From positions 11,932,088 to 11,996,087 of the forward strand of contig CM037593.1 of NCBI GenBank assembly GCA_021018995.1: a stretch of 64,000 nucleotides of DNA. The letters are read 5' to 3'. The notes below the pieces were generated by a model. The model was given only the letters and a program-made list of their open reading frames with translations. It ran no database searches and had not been told where the DNA came from. The translations under genes were made by a program, and so were the position numbers. This stretch comes from Chloranthus sessilifolius (Eukaryota > Streptophyta > Magnoliopsida > Chloranthales > Chloranthaceae). Positions 14,441 to 64,000 of the stretch are shown here, piece after piece; position 1 is the stretch's first letter, and each line of letters begins with the position of its first letter.

Positions 14441-15342
14441 CACTACGTCAAAACTATAAGAAAATAACTTTTGTAGTGTCCAAAAGAATGATTGCCGTAG
14501 CAGTAATATAATAATCAACAGTGAAAAACAGCCATTTATTACATCAAGACAGTGGTTTAATTGATTACCCCTCATCCCATGCTATAAGATATCGTACCTG
14601 TAATAGCCCGAAATATTTGAAGGAGAATCCGTCTGTTTCGATTAGCGTGCCCGGCACGGGAATCGAGACAGATTTAAAAGTTTGAGAATTATATTATTAT
14701 AAATAATATTAGCTGATGATTAGATGAATTCACGTGTGAATTCTCGCTTAGGTCCGAGTCGTGTAGGACGTCGATGCGGCATGTTACGCCGTAGCGATCG
14801 TGTTTGCGCTTCACACCGGAGTCTAACTTAGGGTTTAAAGTGAAATATCAGAGATATTTCATTTTGGTAGCTTATAAGGGAAGGAAGAGACCAAGAAAGA
14901 TCTCCTCTCTTCTTCCTCTTGTTCTTGAACTAAAATTCTGTAGCTAGGTGGGGATCTGAGTGAGTTCTTTGAAGAAACAGGGTTAGAAATACCAAGGTCG
15001 TGCGTCAATCTGAGTTAGGGTATGTAGAGTTCAATAAGACGAACTCAAGTATAATCTAAATGTGTGTGAGGCCTCTGCGTGCTGAACCGGAGCCGATAAT
15101 CTCCTTGTCGGAGTCATTCTGGCGATAAACTCCGAGAGCCGGATCCGAAACCTTCTCGAATTGCGTTTGCTGAGACCCTGAAAGGGCCCAAATAAAGGTG
15201 AGCCTGTGCATTTAAATTGGGCAGATGAGAGCCCCTTATACGTGTGTTAGTGTGTGTATAAATGGTTGTAAGAAACCATTAATGAAAGTGGGTCAAAATA
15301 AGAAAAACAGGTGACCTCCATTAATGACAGAGATATGTCATT

Positions 15343-15943
15343 ATTGATCGATCAATACTAGATTGATCGATCAATGAAGGGTGTTGATCGATCAATAAGG
15401 TCATTGATCGATCAATTCATATAAGCTTTAAAAAGAGAACAGTGAACTTGAATTTCTGGAAGTTCAGGGCTCGAGGGGTATTGATCGATCAATTCTGAGG
15501 GTTGATCGATCACTGAGAGAGTGATCGATTAATGCCAAAGATTGATCGATCAATAAGTATATTGATCGATCACATGTGTATATTGATCGATCAATGAGGG
15601 CATTGATCGATCAATCTGTATAAGGTGACAAAGAGAACAGGAAGAGGAAAATTTGAAAATTTAGGGTATTGATCGATCAATAAGGTCATTGATCAATCAA
15701 TGAGACAGATTGATCGATCAACTGAGCCAGTGATCGATCAATTTTCCTCTATCAAAGTGTGAAGAAAAGGGGGCTATTGATCGATCAATTGAAGCATTGA
15801 TCGATCAATGATAGGAGGTGATCGATCAATAGAGACGATTGATCGATCAATTAACTCTGTTGCTTGTGAAGTAATTGGAGGGCATTGATCGATCAAAGAG
15901 GAGGATTGATCGATCAAAAAAGGTGTTGATCGATCAATCACCC
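15343..15943. repeat. Phased array of ~22 TTGATCGATCAA palindromes (LTR1)
   Basis: About 22 sites, most matching the perfect 12-mer palindrome TTGATCGATCAA, often extended to ATTGATCGATCAAT. Within blocks the start-to-start distance is almost always 20 or 21 bp, while the 7-9 bp spacers differ. The blocks hold about 4, 7, 4, 4 and 3 sites and are separated by 30-70 bp of other sequence. Several variants are C-to-T or G-to-A changes at the central CpG. The array starts about 470 bp downstream of the LTR TATA box, so it would be transcribed. Confidence 0.95.
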
Positions 15944-16979
15944 CTATTTTTGGCCTGTTTTATTTTTGTAAATTGAACACTACTGGACACTGCGCCAGTT
16001 GACATTCTGACATATCTGACACATAGTATACTATATTTATGGTCTAGGATCAGACCTTTACGCTTTGAAAAGCTTTGGATTTGCTTAGAAAGAGGTCTGA
16101 CTAAGGTAGGGGAAAACCAACCTAAACTGTTTTTGACTATGATTTCATGATTCTTTCATATCTGCACCCTGATTTCTGTTTTAACAAGCATGTTAGCATA
16201 TCATAAATTCCTGTTATCTATGATTCCTGTTTTCTGATTTTGTATTCTGAAACCTGCTCCTGATTTCTGCTATCTGATTTGTGAGGTCTATGTGTGTATG
16301 TGATTTTGATGATTTAACTAGATGATCCCCACCGACTGGGCGGTATATCCGTGCTTGACACACTTGTGCATCTGTTTTGTTAATCCCTCGGCACAATTGC
16401 ACTCCATAGATGAGGCATTGTTGCACCCTGAAATTGTTCATGTGAACGACGATTGGTTGGGGTTTCCTATCGGTAGATTCCTGTTTACTCCGTGTTATAT
16501 ATTCACGGGAGTTTCTTAAGTTAGAAAACATATACAATTTAAGTCATTGATTTTATACTTGCATAGCATCTTTTTCTTGTTTAAAAACTCAGTATTTGAT
16601 TTGATTTTGCTCTATTTACACGTTTTGATTTGATTTCCTGCTTTGAGATATCATGTCTTGCATATTCATTACATTTTAGTTGGAATTCTTCTATTGAGCT
16701 AGGATGTAGCTCACCCTGTTTTCATTAACATTTTAGGTTCTGAGGCTAGAGCTCCCGGCACCGAGAGCGACCCTGACTACCAGCCTGATCTAGAGGCTGA
16801 GGCTGAGGACGAGGAGACTGACGTCCAGGCGGACGACTTTTATCCTTAGTCTGGGTATACGAGTCTTTTATTTTTGGAATTTTGTATAAAACTTTGGATT
16901 ATTGTGTGCCTGGTGGCCACTTTCTGTATTAACTTTTTGTAAATGTTTTTCTTTTTCTTGTATTGTTATACATCCTATA

Positions 16980-17045
16980 GGAACCACTATCAGGAACCAT
17001 TGTTTGGGTGATGGATGTCCATCACCAGTGGTTCTTCTTGGTTCC
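16980..17045 (+). promoter_or_regulatory. Nested stem-loop near the 3' end of LTR1
   Basis: GGAACC...GGTTCC encloses GAACCA...TGGTTC, which encloses GGTGATGGATGTCCATCACC, a nearly perfect hairpin. Equivalent nested hairpins with different inner stem sequence occur at 46690-46744 (minus) and 58292-58336. A structured RNA element near the LTR end, perhaps for 3' processing, is inference. Confidence 0.6.
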
Positions 17046-17270
17046 TTTTTGAGGATGTATATTCCTTTGAAATATATATATACATGTTGTGTTTATTGTT
17101 TCTTTCTTTTACAAAGCCTTATGTGATGACTCGATCTACCACTGCTGGACAGTGTCTGCTTGATTTCCGCTAGACGAGCAGACACTTCGTGATTTGTCCT
17201 GGGGATCATCCAGAGTATGATCCTGATAGCACGAATTTTCGGGCACGAAATTCCGGGCTGTCACAGTACC

Positions 17271-36699: not shown

Positions 36700-37369
36700 T
36701 TTTAAATAGTGGATCAACACGCGAAATAAAAGTTACAGAACATGAACCACGCATTAAGCACAACACCCCCAAACCTAAGTGGTGCTATGTCCTTATTGCA
36801 CAAAACTGTAAACATGAAAATAACAATAGGACAGCTGGAAAAATATGATAACAAATCGACATAAGTACCAACGATGCTCGCTCAACGTCTCTTTCAAAGG
36901 AAGAGGGGGAAGAGCCAAGGTCACTCCCTGCTTTTTTTTTTAAAACAAACTGGACTGGTCACAATTCAGAATCGATCGATTGGTTTAAATAAATCAATCG
37001 ATTGATTTGCCACAGAGTTAGCAAGTTTCTGCTTCTCAGTCAATCGATTGTTTTAAAATAGTATCCTTGCAAGTGCACAAGTTCGATAAATGAGGGTGAG
37101 TACAAGGGTGTCAAACCATAGAGCGCAAAATTTTAATTAATTTCTAAAAGTGCAAAAAGAACTTAAGGAAGTACCAAAGGTTGAGATTTTTATGATAAAG
37201 ATTAACTATTCAAGACAAAATTAAAAAGATCTAAACAATGCCTATGCAAGAAAAATAATCGATAATCGAAACAATTATGATGAAAGGATTTAAGGATTTA
37301 GCTAACCCTAGATTCATAATTTTCCTACTAACAATCCAAACATTTTAATGGTAAATTATTTGCCCTCAT

Positions 37370-37865
37370 TTAACTATAAGAAAAACGATTCGATAAAAAT
37401 GTGACTATGATAATCGGCATACACTCTCCTAACACTATGACGTATTCAATTACGACATGAACCATGCAAAATACAAAACGCATCACAAACACATAACCAC
37501 ACTAGAAAAATTAATCGTGCGTCATCCTATATCGATCTACAAGATCGATCTAAGTGGAATAATTCTTTTATTATAGCCGATAACTAAGATCTACCACTAT
37601 AAATGAGTATTTGATGATAACACAATATGCGCAAACTTACAGTCATATAATTTAATAATTGTAACAAGCCTCATTTTACTACAATCAAAAGGATTTGAAA
37701 ATAATGTGATTATTAGATTCGACATACCCTATCTTAACACTATGACGCATTCAATCACGACATGAATCATGCGAAAGACATAACGTATCACAAACATACA
37801 ACCACGACAATAATTATCAATCGTACAAATATCCTATATCGGTCTACAAGATCGATCTCATCCAG
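37370..37865. repeat. ~190-bp direct repeat inside R3
   Basis: The block with AACACTATGACGTATTCAAT, ACGACATGAACCATGC, ATCACAAACA and TCTACAAGATCGATCT occurs at about 37370-37560 and again, diverged, at about 37680-37865. Confidence 0.75.
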
Positions 37866-38179
37866 GGTTCGCTTCGTCCTTTAATGAGTGATTTTAGCCG
37901 CTCATCTCCGATCTACACGCAATGCACAAATTTGAAATTATCGATAAAGTTATTTAATTATCAAGTGTTTGGATCTTTTAGGAAAATATCTGGAACCTTA
38001 GCCTTGATTCCTAATTACAAACTAAATTATCTAAAGTTAAAACTACAAACTGAAAAAACTAAGGAGAGAACCTAAGAAAAATAAGAAAATTCTGCCCAGA
38101 AGGGACCCAAAAGAAGAGTGCCAAACCCTTAAACACTCTTTTATTTATATAGGGCTCGGACTAAAAACCTTCCATAAAC

Positions 38180-38395
38180 AGTTCAATCGATTGAATTTCA
38201 AGATTCAATTGATTGAATTACAAAATTCAATTGATTGAATTAAAAATCTGAAATTTGCAGACTTAAGTGAATTTAAACTCAATCGATTGAGTCTCAAAAT
38301 GCAATCGATTGAATTCAAATTCAGATCTAAAAGGCAAAATAGCCACCTTAAGATCAATCGATTGAATTTAAAATCTCAATCGATTGAGGTAGACA
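38180..38395. repeat. TCAATCGATTGA palindrome array upstream of the R3 TATA box
   Basis: Seven sites of TTCAATCGATTGAA type in pairs or triplets with a spacing of about 22 bp (38185, 38207, 38229; 38279 and 38302; 38353 and 38375). Some read CAATTGATTG, a G-to-A or C-to-T change at the central CpG. More sites lie at 36970-37050. The array is 30-250 bp upstream of the minus-strand TATA box. Confidence 0.85.
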
Positions 38396-46449: not shown

Positions 46450-46689
46450 TCCTAACCAACATTTAAACACCGAAATTGTAACAACCCGAATTTTCACACC
46501 TGAAAACCCGTGCTATCAGGATTATGCTCTGGATAATCCCCGGGACAAGTCAAAGTGTCTGCTCATCTAGCGGAAATCAGAACAGACACTGTCCAGTAGT
46601 GACAGATCGAGTCATCATAAAAAGGCTCAAAAGCGAAGAAAAAAAAATAAACAATGCATATATATAAAAAGAATATGCATCTTCAAAAA

Positions 46690-46744
46690 GGAACTAAAAA
46701 GAATCAATGGTAATGGACATTCATCACTCAAAAACAGTGGTTCC
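46690..46744 (-). promoter_or_regulatory. Nested stem-loop near the 3' end of LTR2
   Basis: On the minus strand GGAACCA...AGTTCC encloses TGATGAATGTCCATTA. Same place as the hairpins at 16980-17045 and 58292-58336. Confidence 0.5.
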
Positions 46745-47786
46745 TATAGAATGTATATGAATACAAGTAACACATCAAATATAAAAATAATATAAAAGGT
46801 GGCCACCAGGCGTACAGATATTCTAAGATACAAATCCCAAAACCCAAAACAAAACTAATATCCAAATAGCTAATAGAACTCGTTAGCTGGAGTATCAGTG
46901 TCCTCCTCCTCAGACTTAGCCTCTGGATCAGGCTGGTACTCACTGTTGCTCTCCGTACTGAGGATTCTAGCCTCATAACCTATTGTATAGAAAATAGGGT
47001 GAGCTACCATCTAAGCTCAGTAGAAGAAACTCAAGTAAATTGCATTTGAAATATAAAGCATGAGATACAGAAAGTAACTCAAGCAGATAGATAATCTGAG
47101 TGTAAGCTGAATAGCAATAATAGAGGATGATGATTAGAGATGTAACATAATAAGCATGCAGGGCTTTTAAATGAACAGAGCATATGTAGAAGCAAAAAAA
47201 AACAGACTTGATTTCAGAATGATCAGATACATGCATACAGTAATTATCTTCTTAATTTCTATATACTTAAATAACTCTCATGAATATAGCACGTGATAGC
47301 CAGATTGGTGTCGATGGGTAACCCTAACTATCATCGTTCAATGAATAATTTCAGAATACAACAATGCTTCAACTAAAGAGTGCAATTGTGCCGATGATTT
47401 TTCAAAGCAGACGCACTAATATTCTGCCGTGCCGATCACGGGTATACCGCTGAGTCGGTGGGATTCGTTAAATGAGCTTTAAATCATTACTCATTAGACC
47501 TCAGAGTCAGATAATAGAACAGATGCAGAGGCAGATAATATAACTTGTATAGCAGAAGAAAACAGATACTTATGTTCAGAAATCATGCCGTCAAAATCGG
47601 ATACAATTTAGGTTGAATATCCCCTACCTCTGAATTTATCTTTCTAAGCAAATCCAAAGCCTTTTAAGATGTCCAGGCTTTGACCTAGATCATTCATATA
47701 GTACACTACAAATCAGAACAACAAAAGCACACTGAGCAGCAGTGTTTGATTCCCAAAAGCCCAAAACAAAGATAGTTCAAAAGAAC

Positions 47787-48415
47787 AGGGGATTCGATCG
47801 ATCAATATTCCTATTTGATCGATCAAATTCATATATGATCGATCAATCTCTTCATTGATCGATTGGATGCCTCAGACCTATACCTTCAAAATAGAGGACA
47901 TCTGATCGATCAATCTCCTCATTGATCGATTGGATTCTCAAGTTGATTGATCAATATCCACTGTTGATTGATCAAACCCACCTTCTTCATATACACAGAA
48001 CAATCCTGGCTTTGATCGATCAATCTCCCATTTGATCGATCAAGCCCCAAATTCGATCGATCAATCCTTATGTTTGATCAATCGGATCAAATTTTAAGAA
48101 AAACTAACCTTCTGTTCTCACAGTGTCCTTATAAAATTTGATCGATCAATTCCATAATTTGATCGATCAATTTCATAGATTGATCGAACAATTCTCAATT
48201 GATTGATCAGTTCACACCTGATCGATCACTTCATAATTTGATCGATTTGTATCAAATTCGATCTATCAAAATACCAGTTTGATCAATCGAGCATATCGGG
48301 TTTTAACTTCTCAAGAAAATCACCCTTCTGTTTCATAAGGGCATAATAAAATTTGATCGATCAACTCCTTAGTTTGATCGATCAGATTACATCAAATTGA
48401 TCAATCGGGTATGAC
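47787..48415. repeat. Phased array of ~23 TTGATCGATCAA-type palindromes (LTR2)
   Basis: About 23 sites in blocks of about 4, 4, 4, 8 and 3, again mostly 20-21 bp apart within blocks. Site variants such as TTGATTGATCAA and TTGATCAATC are mainly changes at the CpG. The spacer text is unrelated to that of LTR1. Same place in the LTR as the array of LTR1. Confidence 0.93.
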
Positions 48416-49699
48416 AGTCAAGCTGTCATTAATGGGGTTGTTGAATCTTAACCCATTTCAACCCTAAGACTTATGACTCTCTACAAAACATCGACACACC
48501 CATAAATACAAATTTATTACACCCAAACCCACATAAAACCCATGACAACTCACCTCTTAAAGGTTGATTCCTTGGTTCACCGCGTTGCGATCCATAGTGG
48601 GTTTCGGATCTGAACTCGAGAGTCTGCCAGAGTGGGTTCTCCAATGAACCAAGATACTACCCACGTTAATACACAGGTGTATGACACTCACAACGTAATC
48701 GGCGTATACCCGTCGATTGACTCATGCTCAAATCAGAAGATCAGAGATCTAGGGTTTCACAAGCTTGGTTTCTCATAGGGGAAGTTCTAGCAAAGGTTTT
48801 GCAAGCAGAGGATTCAAGGGAAGAGAAAAAGCATCAGGTTTTCCCTAACCTTGCTTCTCTTATAAGATACCAATGGAAATATCTTTGATATTTCCATTTC
48901 CAAACTTTCGCTCCTGTGTTGAGCGCGCACACACACTCCCACGTACCCAGCATCTTACAATGAATTCTATCGGACCTCAGATTTGTGTCGCAAGTGACAT
49001 ATCACTTCGCATGCTCCCAGATCATAGATTCCCATATTAATATTCTTTTATTTAAAATTTTAAATTTTCGTGCCGTGCACGGACACCAAAGCAGTCAGAT
49101 GTTATCAGAATTTTAGGGTCGTTATAGAAATGGTGTTTAAATGATCTAACACCATTAAATTAGATTTTGTTATCTTACACCTTTGAAGAGTGGTTATTAT
49201 GCTATGTGGCAGACATTTGTGATCAATCTAAATTTTTCAAGTGGCAATCTACCATTGAACCATATGATTGGCAGACTTTAACATCAACCATTAAAACTAA
49301 AAATAATGGTTGATCGATATTAGACTGGACAGATAAGATGGCCCAAGTCTCCCAAAAAATGTGATTTTTGGGTTCAATGCGCTTCACTTCATGATCTATC
49401 ACTTTGACGGTGTGGATTGCCCACATTGTAAGCCATTAATGTTGTAAGATCATTTAAACATGGGTGTTTAAAAGACGGTCAGGAGAGCCGAGTCCTTTTG
49501 AAAATTAGGGAATAATTCACAAATTTTTTAATAAATCATGAATTTTTATTTTTTTGAAAATTCTTCGTACTTTTTAATTTTATCTATTTTGTATTCTTTA
49601 GCTTTTCTCTCCGATTTTCGCTGAATATTTTTTGTACTTCTCGAATTTTTTCTGATTTCAACCTTGCCGAACCTCGAATAATTTGGGCCATTTCATTTG

Positions 49700-54899: not shown

Positions 54900-55863
54900 T
54901 ATACAATTGTTGGCTGTGTCCAATCTAAATGATGCCCCAGTGAACCATCTGGCACCAAATGAAAAACATTGTCATGTGTATAGAATTGATGACTGATGAG
55001 TAGTGAAATATGATGATATTTCACCCCTAGATACCTACATTTAGCTATCCGATGAAGGCTATCTGATAAGAATTATTAGATTTAAATACAAATAGTAAAA
55101 GTCTGAGCCCAAGAATTCTGAGAATAATGTCAAAACACTGTAACTTTGGGTCATCGAGAACTTGGTGCGACTTGCAGCTCAATTTGGACCTTTAAGACGG
55201 CCGAATTATGAAATTATCAAAATACACAAGTTGTAGATCTTTCTGTAAACTTTTCAACGGCACAAGAATTGCCTTAATCCGAGTTCGGAACAGAAAGTTA
55301 TAACTAAAATACCGAAGCCGTATCTGATGCAAAAGTGGGAAAAAATTCACGAATTTTTGGGAGGTCGATGCATCGACCCTTTTGGTCGATTAATCGAGGA
55401 CAAAAAGCTGTCAGACACGGAACTTACACTTTAAAGCAGATTTTGAGGATTTTTTGCAGGGTCGATGCATCGACCCTATAGGGTTGATTAATCGACCCTG
55501 ACTTGTCGAGGGACACTTCGCTGACGTGGGTGCTATTTAAAGCCAAATCAAACACTTCGAGAAAGGAGAATTTTGGAGGATTATTATTCATTATTATTAT
55601 TATTGGTTTTAGACTCCTCTGGGCATCTTTTGAAGAGTTCTTCTCTTCTCCTTCTTCTAGGGTTTTGATCTGGGTAGATTGTACTTAGGATTTGCACTAT
55701 CTCTCTCTTTTACATTCATAGATTGTATTTAGGAAAAGCATTGTAAACAAAGATCTTTTGGAAGAAATGAAAAGTGGAATGATTTTGAATGAACAAGGAG
55801 ATCATACACTAAAGATGAGCGGCTAAATCAGTTGATCGGGGAAGATGCGATCCCCAGATAAGT
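54900..55863 (+). mobile_element. R3 LTR-like element, plus-strand copy, cut by the Tekay insertion
   Basis: Shares GCTATCCGATGAAGG (55046 region), palindromes before a TATA box (TATTTAAA, 55534-55541) and GATGAGCGGCTAAA (55815) with the minus-strand copy at 36700-38700, in the same order. Interrupted at 55863 by the Tekay element. The left edge is uncertain; 54930-54995 is a repeat also found at 39770-39845. Confidence 0.55.
55355..55505. repeat. Palindrome pairs GGTCGATGCATCGACC and TCGATTAATCGA upstream of the R3 TATA box
   Basis: Two pairs: GGTCGATGCATCGACC at 55363 followed about 21 bp later by GGTCGATTAATCGAGG; then GGTCGATGCATCGACC at 55461 followed about 22 bp later by GGTTGATTAATCGACC. 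They lie 30-180 bp upstream of the TATA box, the same place as the different TCAATCGATTGA array in the other R3 copy. Confidence 0.85.
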
Positions 55864-56437
55864 TGTAATAGCCCAAAGAAAATCACGTTAAACTATGACC
55901 TCGGGATCCGTGTCCGATTGGTCTTAGGTTTGACCAACTAGGAGTTCAATAGTTAGCGTAGAGTGTGATGAGTGAATGTGATGTGATGGGTTGTGTAACA
56001 ATGTGGTGTGTGTTGAAAATCTAAAGTCACATACACCTATTGAGGTGCATGTGCTTAACACACAAACTAGGAGAGATATAAAAGGGTTTAATAACCCTAA
56101 ATGAATGTTTTTGGGTTGTTGAAGGAGAGTAAAGAAGAGAGAGAGAGAGAGAAGTAAGAGAAGAGTTATTGCAACTGTTTGGAAGAAGGATTCAAGCATT
56201 AAAGAGGCCGGATTCGACGCAAGGGATCCGTTAGAACCAAAGCTAGAAACCCTAGCCTTCCAACTATTGATTTGAAATCAACTTGAGATCTATCCAAGGT
56301 AAAATTTTTGTAAATAAGATGCATAGATTATAGGGGTTAAGTTGTGGTTAAATGTGAGTTAGATCATAGGATAATGGCTTAGAAAAATAGAGGAAAAAGT
56401 GTAGGAAAAAGATTGGGAAGAAACTGACTCAAAAAGA

Positions 56438-57110
56438 AATTTGAATCGACAATTCGATTAATCGAAATTGGGTTCGATTAATCGAAATTGGCGAAAGTTG
56501 AAAGGTCGAAGACCACGACTTGATTAATCGAATTGGATTTGATTAATGAATTTGATTCGATTAATCGATTTGAGAATCGATTAATCGATCGGGAACTCTC
56601 GATGGACCCCAAGGGTTGGAGGAAATGATTTGGAAAAATCGACTAATCGAAATGGGATTTGATTAATCGATTGAGTTTTCGATGTCGATTTGGGATCGAT
56701 TAATCGACTTGTAAATTCAAGCTATTCGAGCGGTAGGTACCATGGGAAAAGAAGAAATTCGATTAATGGAAACTAGATTCGATTAATCTAATGAAAACTC
56801 AACTGTTCGAACAGTAGGTGTACACTGCGGAAAGAAGAATTTCGATTAATGGAAACTGGATTCGATTAATCGAACGGAAACTATTTGTTGAGCGGTGAGT
56901 TTACTGCGAAAAGAAGAATTTCGATTAATCAGCAGATTCGATTAATCGAATGACAATTCATTTCGAGGCGAGAATGGACTTTGCGAAAAGGAGAATTTGA
57001 TTAATCGAAATTACTTGATTAATCGATATTGACCTTGATTAATCGATGTTGGAAATCGATTAATCCGAGTTCGATTAATCGATTACGGATTTCGATTAAT
57101 CGTAGGATAA
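56438..57110. repeat. Phased array of TCGATTAATCGA palindromes (LTR3)
   Basis: More than 20 sites of TCGATTAATCGA or close variants (TTGATTAATCGA, CGATTAATCG), spaced about 20 bp within pairs and blocks. The blocks repeat with a period of about 80-90 bp, with inter-block text such as GAACAGTAGGTGTACACTGC and GCGAAAAGAAGAA. Same place in the LTR as the TTGATCGATCAA arrays of LTR1 and LTR2. Confidence 0.92.
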
Positions 57111-58291
57111 ATTTTGTTGACTTTTAGGTTTGACTTTAAGATTCTTGGAGGATCTTATACCTTCTTTATTGCATCCCTTGTGATGTGTTTTACTGTTGTA
57201 TGGTACCATAGGTGGTGCGTGTGAGCTAGTGCACGAGGAGCCACGTGGGACCTTGATGCATTGAACAAGTGAAGACTTGAGGTAGGGAACACCGAACATG
57301 TACTTTATTTTACAAGAGCATGTATGTAGTGATATAAATTTCAATTCAATTATTTTCTCAAAGAATTGTGAAAAGTGTGTGTGTGACATTCATAAGAGTA
57401 AAATGAGCCATCCCGGGGATGAAGAAGTAAAGAGATAAGAGCATCGGGTGTGATGGTTAATGGATACATCCAGGATGTATCCATGATTGAATCATGTTTG
57501 ATAGGGCCTAAGCGATATAAGATAGCACACTTACACGGTGAATAACTATATGTAAGGCACCGATATTTTTGTTATTTGAGGTTCCTTAGGTTACCCCAAG
57601 CGTGGCGGGATATCCACGGCCCGACACGGCGGATATCCGTGGATCTGACTGGCGGCGAAACCGTAGGCGGTCGGAGGCTTATCCGTGCGTAGTAAGCACA
57701 CCCGGGTGTTGATGAGATGTGAAACCCGCCACCAATCCCGTGGGAAAGGGGCTTGGGTACTATATAGTATTCGGGGAATACATTAAAGCTGTCTATATAG
57801 ATGACGATGAAGGGTAGCTCATCGGGGCTCGATGCTATATTGCTCGGGGATTACTTAAGTTGAAAGTTTAAGTTTTGCTTTAGGCCTTTTCAGATTATTC
57901 ATGAGTAAATGAAAACATAAGAAATCAACAAGAAAGCGAATGCTTTTAACTGCTTTATCAACAAGCTGCATAGTCACATCATGCATGGCATATCATAGAA
58001 TATATGTGAGTTATAACTTATATGTTGATGTTTGTTCCCTATTGAGCTAGGATGTAGCTCACCCTATAGACTATCGTCGCAGTCCATTAGTAGCATTGTA
58101 GCCGAGGTTTCAGGGACGTGATCCGTGAGTCGGACTTCTTCTTGGGCGAGTTGGAGCCACCTCAGAGGACTTCTTCTAGAGGACTCGTTGTGCTACTTTG
58201 GGGAGTTTTGAAGATTGTTATGCGGCTTGGTATGTCAAGCCTTTATTTTGTGAAAACATGTATATGTATAGAGTTTGGATTATTCCTGGGC

Positions 58292-58336
58292 GAACCATCC
58301 GTGATGATTTATATCATCGATGGTTGGGATCGGTTC
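58292..58336 (+). promoter_or_regulatory. Nested stem-loop near the 3' end of LTR3
   Basis: GAACCATC...GATGGTT with the inner stem GATGAT-TTAT-ATCATC, and GGTTC closing. Inner stem sequence differs from LTR1 but pairing is kept. Confidence 0.55.
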
Positions 58337-58517
58337 TCCTTCATGTAGGGGCATGAGGTAGAACCGTCTTTTGAAAAGTATTTCTAATTAGATTTAAATT
58401 CGCAAGTTGTTCTTACTTCTTTTATGCTTGATATACCAAAGGTGCATAGTTAAGGGCACGGTCAAGATGATCGTCTTGATGGCACGGGTTTGGGTCTTAA
58501 AATCCGGCATCACGATT

Positions 58518-58615: not shown

Positions 58616-59930
58616 ATGTCGACTAGAGAGGCCGACCAAGGGAGGCCATCAAAGGAGTTTACGAGTGGAGATGGTTACATCCCTCCTACCAATAGAGTGC
58701 CTTTAGGAGGTAATGAGGCCCCAGGGGGCAGTAGTAGCAGACAACATGAAGAAGAGGATCGAGATCATCAGGATCAAGATCTAAGAGAGCAAGAAAGATT
58801 GAGAGAAAGGCAAGAAGATAGAGAGGAGCGACAGAGAATGATGCACACTAAGGAGACTATGGCGGTGCCATGGCACAACAATGACATCCTTTGCATCTCA
58901 TCGTCAAGAGAACGTGACCACCTACACCACATGAGGACTGCGTTGCTGTGCCCTCATCTTTCTGAGTTTAGAAGGATGAGACCTCACAATGGTTCACGGC
59001 GAGAATTGGCCGATGGAAATGGAGAAAGTTTTAAGCGTGCTAACTTGCACGGAAGATGAGAGTGTAAGATGGGCAGCTTACATGTTGGATGGGGAGGCTG
59101 GGCCTTGGTGGAAGTCCGTGATACGGACTCGGGCTCAGGAGACCCTAGAGCTGCCATGGACTTGGGAGGAGTTTGTTGAGGAGTTCAACAAACAATATTT
59201 TCCGGAAGTAGTGAGGAACCAGCTTGAGATTCAGTTCCTACAGCTAGTACAAGGGAGGATGACTGTGAGAGAATACGGGGTAGAGTTTCTGACTTGCCGC
59301 GTTTGCTCGGATACGTAAACCACAGTGATGAAGTCCAAGAGGTTTGACAAGGTTTGAAGCACGAGGTTAGGGGGCGTAGCTCCATTTCAGCGAGGACCTA
59401 TGAAGAGGTCATGAGCAAAGCATTGGTTGTAGAAGAGGAGAACCAGGATATAGACAGAGAGAGCAGAGAGGACTTGACCACGGAAGGATGGGGAACTTCT
59501 GAACCGTGAATAAAAAGCCGAGATTCGTGGGTCGAGTCGAGACCATTTGAGGAGGTTTTGGAAGACCGTAACAACAAGAACAACAACACCAGAGGTTTCC
59601 ATTACTTGCGTCGGGAGACCTATTCGCCATGAGAGCCCCGCCATGTCACGGTGCCACTATCACAGGGGTTCTCGACAGTATCTTCCGCACCTCGAGAGAC
59701 GTGCAGCGATGTGTGGCAACCGCATAGGACTATAGACCGCAGAATCGGAACTAGAGGTTGTTCCGATGTGGCAAGGTGGGCCACATGATCAAGGATTGCC
59801 CGAGAGACAGGACAAGGGCAAGACGGCTTGCTGATTCTGACCAGACCCATTCAAGCAAGGAAGCCGATTGTTAGGGGGAGAGCCTATATCGATCCGTCAG
59901 AAGCGGGGAATGTGCAGCGTCATCCAAGGT
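58616..59930 (+). pseudogene. Tekay-like gag region
   Basis: Gag begins MSTREADQGRPSKEFTSGDG. Core text AAYMLDGEAGPWWKSV and WEEFVEEFNKQYFPEVVRNQ then KEIQFL-like (LEIQFLQLVQGRMTVREY) at about 59070-59290 is the retrotransposon gag domain. A zinc-knuckle text CGKVGHMIKDCP lies at about 59770-59805. Fossil copy, not intact; capsid-nucleocapsid part of the element. Confidence 0.8.
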
Positions 59931-60059
59931 GAGAAATTTTATTTTTATTAAAGAAAATTCCGTTTCATAAAGAATTTTAGATGGAAAAAGGTGCATGCAT
60001 TAGGAATAGTGTAGGTTCTTTTAATATAAGCCGAGAGTGCATTTTGATGTGTAAATTTA

Positions 60060-63000
60060 CGTATGTATGTGTATATATATTATAGGTACTTTAACTATGT
60101 ATGAAAGGGAAGTGTATTTAGACATGACGCCGAGTGTTGATAGACCGGTCTACCCACTCATTAAATCTACTCCACGTTTGCTAAGAAGATGAAGATCGTT
60201 CCAGACGTTGGATTTCGTCCTATCGTGTCTATTCATTTGGAGAGTTAGTAGACACGGAGTTAGCTTGCAAATCCATCATCGAGCAGTTCAAGACTTAGAA
60301 GTGCATGAATTGGAAGCAAAGTTGGTATTAGACATGCAAGGGTTTGATGTGATCCTTGGCATGGGTCGGTTGTATGACATTGTGCGACCATTGATTGCAA
60401 GAACAAGGTAGTCATTTTCGGACCCAACACAAGAAGATCATTTCGGTTTCAAGGGTGAGGTCGTCATACGTGCCCTTGATCTCGTGAAGGAGTAGAAAAT
60501 GATCGAGAAAGGGATGATGGATACTTAGCTTTCTTAAAGGAGGACAAGGAGGAAAAGAACGTCATTTACGAGATAGCAATTATGCGAGACTTCACGACGT
60601 GTTTCGGAAGAATTGCACGGATTACCTCCGAAAGAGAAGTAGAATTCGCCATTGACTTAGCACCGAGGAACGGAGCCTATTTGAAAGCACCTTATAGAAT
60701 GGCTCCGGCCGAGCTAAAGGAGTTGAAGGAACAACTACAAGAGCGATGGACAAGGGGTTTGTTAGACCAAGTGTATCTCCATGGGGAGCACCGGTCTTGT
60801 TTGTCAAGAAGAAAGATGGGTCAATGAGACTATGCATTGACTATCGACAATTGAACAAACTCACCGTGAAGAACCGATACCCTTTGCCTAGAATTGACGA
60901 TCTATTCGACCAACTGCAAGGTGCAAAGTATTTTTCCAAGATAGACCTGAGATCTGGGTATCATCAGTTGCGAGTCAAAGCTGAGGACATTCAGAAGACA
61001 GCTTTCCGGACACGGTATGGACACTATGAATTCCTTGTGATGCCGTTTGGGTTAACGAATGCTCCAAAGATCGTTTATGGATCCGATGAACCGAAAGTGT
61101 TTAAACCACACTTGGACTCTGCGTTGTAGTATTTGTTGATGATATACTAATATACTCCAAATCCAAGACAGAACACGAAGAACACTTGAGGATTGCTCTA
61201 CAAACGCTACGTGAACACCAATTATACGCCAAACTCAGTAAGTGTGAGTTTTGGCTGGAAGAAGTCAGCTTTTTGGGACATGTCGTCTCGAAGCACGGCG
61301 TCACGGTAGATCCAGCAAAGATAGAAGCAGTAGTTAAATGGGAGCAACCAAAGACAGTGACAGATGTCCGAAGTTTTCTGGGCTTAGCAGGCTATTATCG
61401 ACGTTTCGTTGAGGGGTTTTCAAAGATATCGGGACCTCTCACAAAGCTGACACGAAAAGATTCAAGGTTTGAGTGGAGTGAGGCATGCGAGAAGAGTTTT
61501 CAAGAACTCAAAACGAGACTCACTTCAGCTCCAGTGTTGGCAATTCCTTGACGGTGGAGGATACGCATGTCTGACGCGTCATACAATGGCCTTGGTTGTG
61601 TGCTCAACCAACACCGAAGGTGATAGCTACGGATCAAGAATTTGAAAGAACACGAGAAAAATTACCCGACTCATGACTTGAACGGCAGTACATTTTTACC
61701 GAAAATTTGGAGACATTACTTGTATGGTGAGACTTTTGAAATTTTCACCGATCATAAGAGCCTCCGATATCTGTTTACACAGAAAGAGCTCAATATGAGA
61801 CAGCGCAGATGGATGGAATTCCTCAAGGATTATGATTGCTCCATACAATATCATCCTGGCAAGGCGAATGTAGTAGCCGATGCATTGAGTCGAAAGGGTT
61901 CAGCTCAGTTAGCTTCATTGATTTTGGGTATGCACCGATGGAAACTATTGGAAGACCTGGCATGCTATGATGCGAACATTGAGTCAAAGGACACTGGATC
62001 CTTTTTGGCTAACATCTCAGTAAAGCCAGTGATATTTGAACATATCCACGAGCTACAGATGAAAGATCCAGCATTAACAAAGATTCGTCAAGACGTGAGT
62101 GAAGGCATCAGTTCGGACTTCTCAATAAAAGCAGATGGTTCTTTGTTGTTTAAAGGCCGTCTATGCATCCCGGATAATGCCGATCTAAGACGAACAATTC
62201 TGGATGAGGCTCATAAGTCAAATTATGCCATCCACCCTGGTAGCACCAAAATGTACCAAGATTTGAAAAAGAATTATTGGTGGAGAGGACTGAAACAAGA
62301 CGTGGCCGAGTATGTGTCACGATGTTTGACTTGTCAACAAGTGAAGGTTGATCATAGACATCTGCGGACTATTGCAACCTTTACCAATACCGTAATGGAA
62401 GTGGAATCGATCTCAATGGATTTCATTGTTGGATTACCTCGCTAAGAAACATAATGCTATTTGGGTCGTCAGAGACCGATTGACCAAATCAACAGACTTT
62501 TGCCATACAAAACTACATATCGGGAAGATTGGCAACCTATATATGAAAGAGATTGTAAGATTACATGGTATTCCAAAGATAGTTTGATCGTGATCCACTT
62601 GTACGCCCAAGTTTTGGAAGAAATTTCAAGAAGGAATGGGAACGCGACTAGACTTTAGTTCACTTTCCATCCTCAAACCGATGGATGACAGAGTGTGAAT
62701 CAAGTGATAGAAGACATGCTCAGAGCTTGCATGCTTGATATGCAAGGATACTGGGATGAGTATCTACCGATGCTCGAGTTCGCATATAACAACAGTTTTT
62801 CAAACGAGCATTGGCATGGCACCGTATGAAGCTCTGTATGGACGACGATGCAAGTCACCTCACGAATTGGGAGGAAACAGGTGAGAAATTTGTATTAGGA
62901 CCAAAAGCGCTTGAAGACAACGCCACCGTCGTCAAATTATCGAGAGAAAGGTTGAAGACAAAGACAGTAGATGAAAAGTTACGATGCGATGAAGCGGACT

Positions 63001-63440
63001 AGTGTTGACTACAAAGTGGGCGAGCATGTGTTTGTGAAGGTGTCACCTATGAAAGGTGTAATGCGATTTGGCAAGAGGGGAAGTTAAGTCCACGTTATGT
63101 TGGACCATTTGAAATTTTGGGACGAATAGGTGAAGTTGCATATCGCATTAGTTTACCACCTATTCGATCGAGTACATAATGTCTTCCACATATCGATGCT
63201 CGAGAAAGTACGTGAATGATCCGTCTCATGTGTTAGGGAAGCAACCTATAGAGATGTGTGAGGACATGAGCATGATAGAGGAACCGGTGGAGATCTTGGA
63301 TGGAAAGAACAAAATCGCGCACTAAAGTAATTCCCTTAGTGCTTGTTCGATGGAACAATCATCCTAAAGAAGAGGCTACTTGGGAGCGAGAGGCCGATGT
63401 AAAGAACAATACCCGACCTTGTTTCCAACGACGTGAAAGT
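60060..63440 (+). pseudogene. Tekay-like pol region (protease, RT, RNase H, integrase, chromodomain)
   Basis: Protease end DMQGFDVILGMGRL at about 60336-60377. RT at about 60650-61550: [66 protein letters not shown]. RNase H at about 61640-61905: [20 protein letters not shown] and [16 protein letters not shown]. Integrase zinc-binding and core from about 62160: [40 protein letters not shown]. Chromodomain-like VLVRWNNHPKEEATWERE at about 63340-63395. The order RT-RNase H-integrase-chromodomain makes it a Ty3 chromovirus; motif wording and the long LTR favour Tekay/Del. Broken fossil. Confidence 0.88.
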
Positions 63441-63559
63441 GCGATGTAAACCACAAGCGTGTTGTGAAATCTCCACTATACTTGTAATTCAATGGAAATT
63501 TTAATCCAATCATCATGAATTGTCGAAAATAAGAAAAGAAACAAAGAGATTTAAATTCT

Positions 63560-64000
63560 GTAGAAACTGGGCAAAATCGATTAAACGAATTTCAAATCGA
63601 TTAATCGATTTGGAATTTCGATTAATCGATAATGTTCGGGTAGTCGATCGGCATGTGCCGGATTTGGAAATGAAAAGTTGAGTTAGAAAATGCATAGAAA
63701 GAAATTTGATTAATCGAAATGGGATTTCGATTAATCAAATACTTAAGGAATTTTGGAAAATTTTTGAAGTTTTTGCACGATTTCGATTAATCGAAACTAA
63801 GTTCGACTAATCGATTTTGAGATTTGGATTAATCGAAATGAATTTCGATTAATCGCCTGGCACGCGCCAGTGAGCTCAAAATTTTAAATTTTTAAACAAA
63901 CACGATTTCGATTAATCGAAATATTTTCGATAAATCGAATTTTATTTTCGATTAATCAATTTTAAATTTCGATTAATCGATTTTACTGCTTAACCTAGTT
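63560..64000. repeat. Second TCGATTAATCGA palindrome array, 3' of pol
   Basis: About 16 sites of TCGATTAATCGA type between the pol end and the window edge, mostly 19-22 bp apart. The sequence around them does not match the start of the 5' LTR, so this array is probably in the internal 3' region, before the 3' LTR. Confidence 0.85.

Follow-up and report, generated by a model that had tools for sequence, protein, structure and literature searches.

Regularly spaced palindrome arrays in two kinds of Ty3/gypsy retrotransposon of Chloranthus sessilifolius: probable site clusters for a dimeric DNA-binding protein

Several long terminal repeats (LTRs) of Ty3/gypsy retrotransposons in a 64,000-nucleotide stretch of the Chloranthus sessilifolius genome (GenBank assembly GCA_021018995.1, contig CM037593.1, positions 11,932,088 to 11,996,087; hereafter the window) carry arrays of short palindromes, mostly set about two helical turns apart. 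We propose that these arrays are probably DNA-level cis-regulatory site clusters for a dimeric DNA-binding protein, itself probably of the host. The data behind this reading are the motifs, their spacing, their conservation and abundance, their spread over two kinds of element, and their position relative to TATA-like words. The arrays and the elements that hold them (LTR1, LTR2, and the LTR3 element) are listed in Table 1; loci fetched from elsewhere in the genome carry L numbers.

The array in LTR1 was confirmed. It comprises 22 matches to the type-A word TTGATCGATCAA at no more than two mismatches, 16 of which are perfect, and the window as a whole holds 45 such matches versus 5.8 expected from shuffling, a number reached in none of 100 shuffles. 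Start-to-start distances along the array run 19, 21, 20, (77), 21, 19, 21, 20, 21, 20, (66), 20, 21, 20, (47), 20, 21, 21, (46), 21, and 20 bp, with all 17 within-block spacings at 19–21 bp and the blocks (in brackets) separated by 77, 66, 47, and 46 bp. A reading made from the DNA letters without database searches (the sequence-only reading) had described about 22 near-identical palindromes at 20–21 bp here, in good agreement with these counts, and had reported similar arrays in LTR2 and LTR3. The former carries the same palindrome on the minus strand, as described. The palindrome in LTR3 proved to be a different one, the type-B word TCGATTAATCGA, and its spacing is looser (20, 37, 59–63 bp, and others). 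Three further groups of sites had not been listed: a second type-B array in the LTR3 element, located past pol and outside the 5' LTR just behind the chromodomain, the palindrome pairs in an LTR fragment next to LTR3, and the type-C palindromes on the minus strand. LTR1 and LTR2 turned out to be solo LTRs.

Neighbour distances were compiled from 15 arrays, namely 13 of type A, the array in LTR3, and the post-pol array of the same element; L003 and L004, which overlap L002, were left out of these and of the conservation, position-table, symmetry, and lattice counts. Among 206 neighbour distances of up to 30 bp, 177 were 20 or 21 bp and 197 were 19–22 bp, eleven of the 13 type-A arrays having been fetched for holding a close type-A palindrome pair (pattern allowing 17–25 bp). 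With that pattern, 57 of 62 distinct pairs on either strand were 20 or 21 bp apart among the matches listed, all on contig C1. A test independent of the palindrome sequence covered 20 × 10 kb of contigs C1–C10, each stretch placed at an arbitrary round position, and used perfect 12-bp palindromes with at least three letters. It returned 126 palindromes versus 48 in local letter shuffles, with distance peaks at 20 (5 pairs), 21 (4), 22 (11), and 24 bp (3), where at most 0.05 were expected. Clear arrays were present in four of the 20 stretches (L008, L015, L016, and L022). Mean spacing was 20.4 bp for type A, 20.2 bp for type B, and 21.9 bp for type C (TCAATCGATTGA). For perfect sites no more than 30 bp apart, and among the matches listed, 28 of 34 type-C distances were exactly 22 bp, while 30 of 40 type-B distances were 20 or 21 bp and 37 of 40 were 19–22 bp. 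The peak at 20–21 bp thus recurs in other copies, and the type-A sites lie near two helical turns apart, as the sequence-only reading had proposed.

Conservation was compared among ten of the 13 copies of type A; of the three not used, L029 and L030 match LTR1 and LTR2 in the array only and L002 in the array and downstream of it only. With sites labelled in one partner (90 ordered pairs), identity was 0.89 in cores, 0.50 in spacers, 0.56 in inter-block gaps, and 0.63/0.65 in left/right flanks. Pairwise alignment with both partners labelled gave 0.92, 0.50, 0.57, and 0.63/0.65, respectively, where the choice of sites by palindrome similarity favours cores and the change to one-partner labelling cut core identity to the lower of the two values. 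A simple satellite or tandem repeat was rejected on this evidence, since the unit is not conserved alike over its whole length. Conserved cores with free spacers, unlike an ordinary satellite, had been the earlier description. Two outcomes had been named in advance as speaking against it, namely equal conservation of core and spacer, or no 20–21 bp peak in other copies; both were looked for and neither was observed. Within LTR1, the 17 spacers had a mean pairwise identity of 0.41 compared to 0.35 after shuffling (p ~0.001), the cores 0.95, and the spacer word TAAGGTCA was found twice. To call these spacers unrelated is nearly right: most are, and some bear a faint trace of common origin.

Types A, B, C, and D (TCGATGCATCGA) are the words dominating the sampled sequence (at least four palindromes). 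All of them fit TYRATNNATYRA, with a spacing of mostly 20–22 bp. Perfect forward matches in the genome numbered 65,226 for type A, 241,617 for type B, 64,441 for type C, and 11,063 for type D, versus 317, 55, 79, and 26 for the respective reversed controls. The asymmetric hybrid of an A arm and a C arm (TTGATCGATTGA) occurs in 3,101 + 3,062 copies. Among sites of the fetched loci chosen by fit to TYRATNNATYRA, most of them at loci retrieved for types A and D, the arms were symmetric at 260 of 312 array sites versus 38 of 67 isolated sites, and the centre was palindromic at 81% of array sites versus the 51% expected from independent centre letters. It was probably in active lineages that the symmetric forms A, B, C, and D became established.

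The arrays are spread over chromodomain and Athila-like Ty3/gypsy elements, in LTRs and after pol, and are not the satellite of one family. Downstream of LTR3, Pfam matches within 58980–62442 place gag, reverse transcriptase, RNase H, and integrase in Ty3/gypsy order, the coding reading being split over several frames, and a chromodomain follows integrase both here and in the related L016 (27.4 bits). We take this element to be probably of the Tekay lineage, the label given in the sequence-only reading; for LTR3 the label agrees with the chromodomain and the order of the coding parts, but the feature itself is not confined to that lineage. LTR1 and LTR2, which are without coding part, have a GAGCTA...TAGCTCACC motif in common with LTR3 and L016 in variant forms, and LTR1 16672–17265 is 74% similar to LTR2.

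The second kind, presumably Athila-like, comprises L015, L022, and the window pieces 55201–55863 and 36972–38387. In L015, the RNase H and integrase matches share only ~23% identity with the chromovirus there. No chromodomain was detected in L015 or L022 by a pattern search; the same pattern also missed the chromovirus-like L008, L010, and L017. The two LTRs of L022 are 91% alike, and this locus has sequence in common with L015. The window fragment is 77% alike to L015 over 278 bp, and pieces of L034, L035, and L037 are 70–81% like the fragment. In the LTR3 element and in L015, RNase H precedes integrase and the Pfam matches are of Ty3/gypsy type, so that neither is Ty1/copia. Type B occurs in both the chromodomain element and the Athila-like LTRs, where it is mixed with type D, the D and B words being mostly 20–22 bp apart.

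In Athila-like sequences, the nearest palindrome starts 44–75 bp upstream of the TATA-like word TATTTAAA at seven of 11 occurrences (the window fragment, one of two in L034, two in L035, L037, and both LTRs of L022). In the window fragment, the members of the nearer palindrome pair start 50 and 72 bp upstream of the word at 55534. In the type-A LTRs, a putative TATA box precedes the array, in line with the earlier claim; CTTATAAG is common to LTR1 and LTR2 at this place, ~470 bp upstream of the array. Donor-like and acceptor-like sites flank the type-A array, which therefore probably lies in an intron, judging by sequence features: the donor word AGGTGAG, ~150 bp before the array, is kept in eight of 11 aligned copies, and the acceptor-like site ends at 16736 and is followed by a 3-periodic reading.

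That reading (SEARAPGTESDPDYQPDLEAEAEDEETDVQADDFYP, then a stop; 16737–16849 in LTR1) is acidic and has counterparts in L001, L002, L008, L010, L016, and L017. Substitutions among the LTR copies are 3-periodic (32:10:3, p 2e-7, uncorrected for windows scanned), and other Tekay-type LTRs contain analogous acidic readings, two of which end in PPPEDFF. The LTR1 reading resembles a conserved coding exon within the LTR. No first exon for it was found in the stretch upstream of the donor, where 3-periodic windows at 15094–15213 (best p ~3e-4, uncorrected) were rejected as a coding exon because they are not coherent across copies. An inverted repeat, ATTGAGCTAGGATGTAGCTCACC in variant forms, precedes the acceptor-like site by ~20–30 bp (16693–16715 in LTR1) and was also seen in LTR2, LTR3, L001, L002, L005, L008, L010, L016, and L017.

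Taken together, the dyad symmetry, the location of the Athila-like palindromes ahead of a TATA-like box, a form and spacing that stay constant although the letters change, and the occurrence in two kinds of element point to a dimeric DNA-binding protein, most simply one of the host. Such a homodimer would recognise ATYRA as its half-site in either arm of TYRATNNATYRA. With about two helical turns between them, neighbouring dimers of a block would occupy roughly one side of the DNA, a geometry that would favour cooperative binding. The arrays would serve as cis-regulatory elements in at least two unrelated lineages of Ty3/gypsy, acting from ahead of the TATA box in Athila-like LTRs and, in Tekay-type elements, from the post-pol region and the transcribed leader, which is probably an intron. 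Most likely they would function by recruiting a host transcription or chromatin factor, which would activate the element or maintain it in an open state.

Several points weigh against this proposal, in which protein binding, the dimeric state, host origin, and activation are all steps that we infer. Four of the 11 TATTTAAA sites do not fit, with distances of 370 bp at the second site in L034, 135 bp in L015, and 14 and 297 bp in the C-type element on the minus strand of the window (the site at 14 bp has a further palindrome at 60 bp); TATTTAAA is an AT-rich word, and the comparison left out L036 (type D) and all type-A and Tekay type-B arrays. The type-A array of Tekay-type elements, being downstream of the putative TATA box, is not a classical upstream site. 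The earlier claim that all sites lie on one DNA face is borne out as far as a spacing near two turns goes, but the means differ between types A and C, and the inter-block gaps of 46–77 bp are not multiples of the mean spacing and break the helical phase. Successive type-A spacings were negatively correlated (permutation p 0.003 for 13 arrays, some of them related by descent, and 0.017 for six representatives), and simple alternation gave p 0.028 and 0.57, respectively; the evidence for a strict helical lattice is weak and such a lattice is unproven. Finally, type-B copies with one CpG lost number 25,560 + 25,633 and those with both lost 4,075 (control 465), which is near the ~2,700 that we calculate for independent decay. 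Losses this close to independence suggest that most copies decay neutrally, and they give no support to upkeep of the symmetry copy by copy.

The arrays might instead act as RNA, neighbouring palindromes pairing into transcript hairpins for RNA dimerisation or packaging, or for small-RNA silencing, as proposed for Sirevirus palindromes. This had been held equally possible in the sequence-only reading, and we consider it unlikely. The LTR1 array, located downstream of the putative TATA box, would be transcribed, and it folds at -255 kcal/mol compared to a mean of -154 kcal/mol for 20 shuffles (z = -26), but the score is uninformative because any row of identical palindromes folds in this way. 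On the transcribed strand, type-A spacers are rich in purines at their inner letters (62–74% per array in 12 arrays, with only 7% C), which would suit an RNA role. A hairpin loop need not be 8–9 nt, yet the spacing is almost fixed and far tighter than a loop needs. Moreover, in most Athila-like LTRs examined the palindromes lie upstream of a TATA-like word and would therefore enter the transcript at its 3' end only, and the type-A arrays lie in a probable intron. As regards spacer composition elsewhere, the D/B spacers of Athila-like LTRs are pyrimidine-rich in three of four arrays; these and the type-C spacers are unlike those of type A.

By analogy with VANC, which serves VANDAL elements, the sites could be targets of an anti-silencing protein encoded by the element itself. 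VANDAL elements are DNA transposons, not retrotransposons. That most arrays are dominated by one palindrome, which differs between families, would agree with such a binder, as would the 3-periodic acidic reading in Tekay-type LTRs. In the pieces searched, however, no DNA-binding reading frame was found and Pfam matched no DNA-binding domain besides the zinc-binding parts of integrase, and the sequence ahead of the donor shows no coherent coding. The same palindrome in two kinds of element also fits a host factor better than an element-encoded binder, which we regard as rather improbable.

A neutral tandem repeat spread by slippage, without function, would account for the higher-order duplications (period 108 bp in LTR1 and 83 bp in LTR3), for the residual similarity of the LTR1 spacers, and for the block layout common to related copies. 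It appears very unlikely, as the spacers diverged more than the flanks while the cores stayed, different lineages have different palindromes of the same form at near-equal spacing, and B and D palindromes stand side by side in one array. Least probable by far is a ~10-bp periodicity that bends DNA or sets the rotational position of nucleosomes, because the TT/AA steps found about every 10 bp in type A have their counterpart in type B, by sequence, in A/T steps at the dyad, half a turn off, which makes a common signal of this sort unlikely.

Table 1. Palindrome arrays and associated features in the window
Feature	Position	Strand	Remarks
LTR1, solo LTR with type-A array	14599..17265	+	5-bp target-site duplication (TSD) GTACC at 14594-14598 and 17266-17270
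Putative TATA box of LTR1, CTTATAAGGGAAG	14873..14878	+	inferred from by-eye comparison; LTR2 has CTTATAAGAGAAG
Putative intron of LTR1 leader, array inside	15198..16736	+	AAAG/GTGAG ... TTTTAG/GTTCTGAGG
Type-A array in LTR1	15344..15937		22 TTGATCGATCAA copies in blocks of 4, 7, 4, 4, and 3; 19-21 bp spacing within blocks
Type-C palindromes (TCAATCGATTGA and near forms)	36972..38387		neighbours 22 bp apart; minus-strand relative of L022
LTR2, solo LTR	46477..49126	-	TSD ATTTC at 46472-46476 and 49127-49131
Type-A array in LTR2	47794..48385		18 sites, 6 perfect
Two palindrome pairs, TCGATGCATCGA then T[CT]GATTAATCGA	55365..55495		21-22 bp apart; in Athila-like LTR fragment 55201-55863
LTR3, 5' LTR of chromodomain element	55864..58515 (3' end approximate)	+	primer-binding-site-like TTTGGTATCAAAGC after LTR
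Type-B array (TCGATTAATCGA) in LTR3	56454..57103		20 sites, 8 perfect
Chromodomain piece, LTR3 element	63279..63446	+	Pfam PF00385, 26.3 bits vs cut-off 25.1
Type-B array after pol	63577..63980		13 sites, 5 perfect

Some features near the arrays were recorded in addition. Directly ahead of the first LTR1 palindrome is an inverted repeat, ATGACAG...CTGTCAT (15324–15341); it is exact in five of 11 aligned type-A copies, near-exact in five more, and absent from L002. The gaps after blocks 1 and 2 (15420–15442 and 15619–15640 in LTR1) have a TATAA-like word in common, followed by GAACAG or GAACAT. The word also occurs in the same gaps of five other arrays, and GAACAT in nine of 12 such gaps (six arrays). 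The TATAAG words between blocks were considered as candidates for the real TATA box, but they lie only a few bases past a palindrome, unlike the Athila-like layout. Downstream of its array, L002 is 90% like LTR1, yet the array layout differs and the upstream part is unmatched, as if arrays or upstream parts had been exchanged between families. The start of LTR3 coincides with the end of the Athila-like LTR fragment (55201–55864), which bears palindromes of its own, as if LTR3 had inserted there. Type-D palindromes repeat every ~1.4–3 kb over 12 kb at G000 C1:9240485–9252410, as if Athila-like LTR pieces stood in a row.

The general kind of structure is already known, although the sequence-only reading knew of no description: palindromic repeated motifs upstream of TATA are described for LTRs of Ty1/copia Sireviruses in passages of PMC2829016. 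Like the present arrays, these are high-copy dyad-symmetric LTR motifs near TATA with a second non-coding place and variants of one core (passages of PMC2829016 and PMC10760457). They belong to copia elements and have a CGG-CCG core forming CpG islands, and fixed spacing is not mentioned in those passages. The arrays described here differ in the AT-rich TYRATNNATYRA, the 20–22 bp spacing, and the Ty3/gypsy setting, and those of type A in Tekay-type elements lie downstream of the putative TATA box; the position tables of types A, B, and C show no CGG-CCG core. The VANC targets of Arabidopsis VANDAL elements likewise form family-specific, co-evolving arrays of short motifs in non-coding regions and introns, but the motif given in the passages of PMC5735166, YAGTATTAY, is not a palindrome and its binder is element-encoded. 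In the Drosophila gypsy insulator, twelve protein-binding repeats are clustered in a 5' untranslated region (PMC2493044, in part). This insulator belongs to an insect element and is bound by the zinc-finger protein Su(Hw), palindromes are not described in that part of the source, and homology is not claimed. Retand elements resemble the post-pol case in having repeat arrays between pol and the 3' LTR; these are tandem, 8–100 bp, and highly variable, with neither palindromes nor fixed helical spacing described in the passages of PMC11963269. The main text of a classification survey of plant LTR retrotransposons contains no word starting with "palindrom" (PMC6317226, main text). Among titles and abstract openings in open-licence PubMed Central, preprints excluded, nothing was found on these words as retrotransposon arrays or on regularly spaced palindromes in Ty3/gypsy LTRs, the Sirevirus work being closest. 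The Ty3/gypsy setting, the tight spacing, and the half-site common to two lineages look new.

A bolder form of the proposal is put forward only tentatively. TYRAT-NN-ATYRA may be recognised by a single dimeric factor of the host, or by a small family of paralogues, which at least two unrelated lineages of Ty3/gypsy came to exploit independently by building helically spaced cooperative arrays; successive active families would have switched both arms together (ATCGA to ATCAA or ATTGA) as well as the centre (TA, CG, GC), recording co-evolution with paralogues of the factor. If so, the ~382,000 perfect copies of the four words would be an enormous genomic sink for that factor, and two unrelated lineages with a half-site in common would be a clear example of one regulator captured convergently. 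In the symmetric switches between families, the co-evolution of protein and DNA would have left a natural record, and the tightly spaced arrays could serve as ready-made probes of cooperative DNA binding. Binding of the arrays by one protein would help to explain how very abundant elements of this 2.17-Gb genome switch on or escape silencing.
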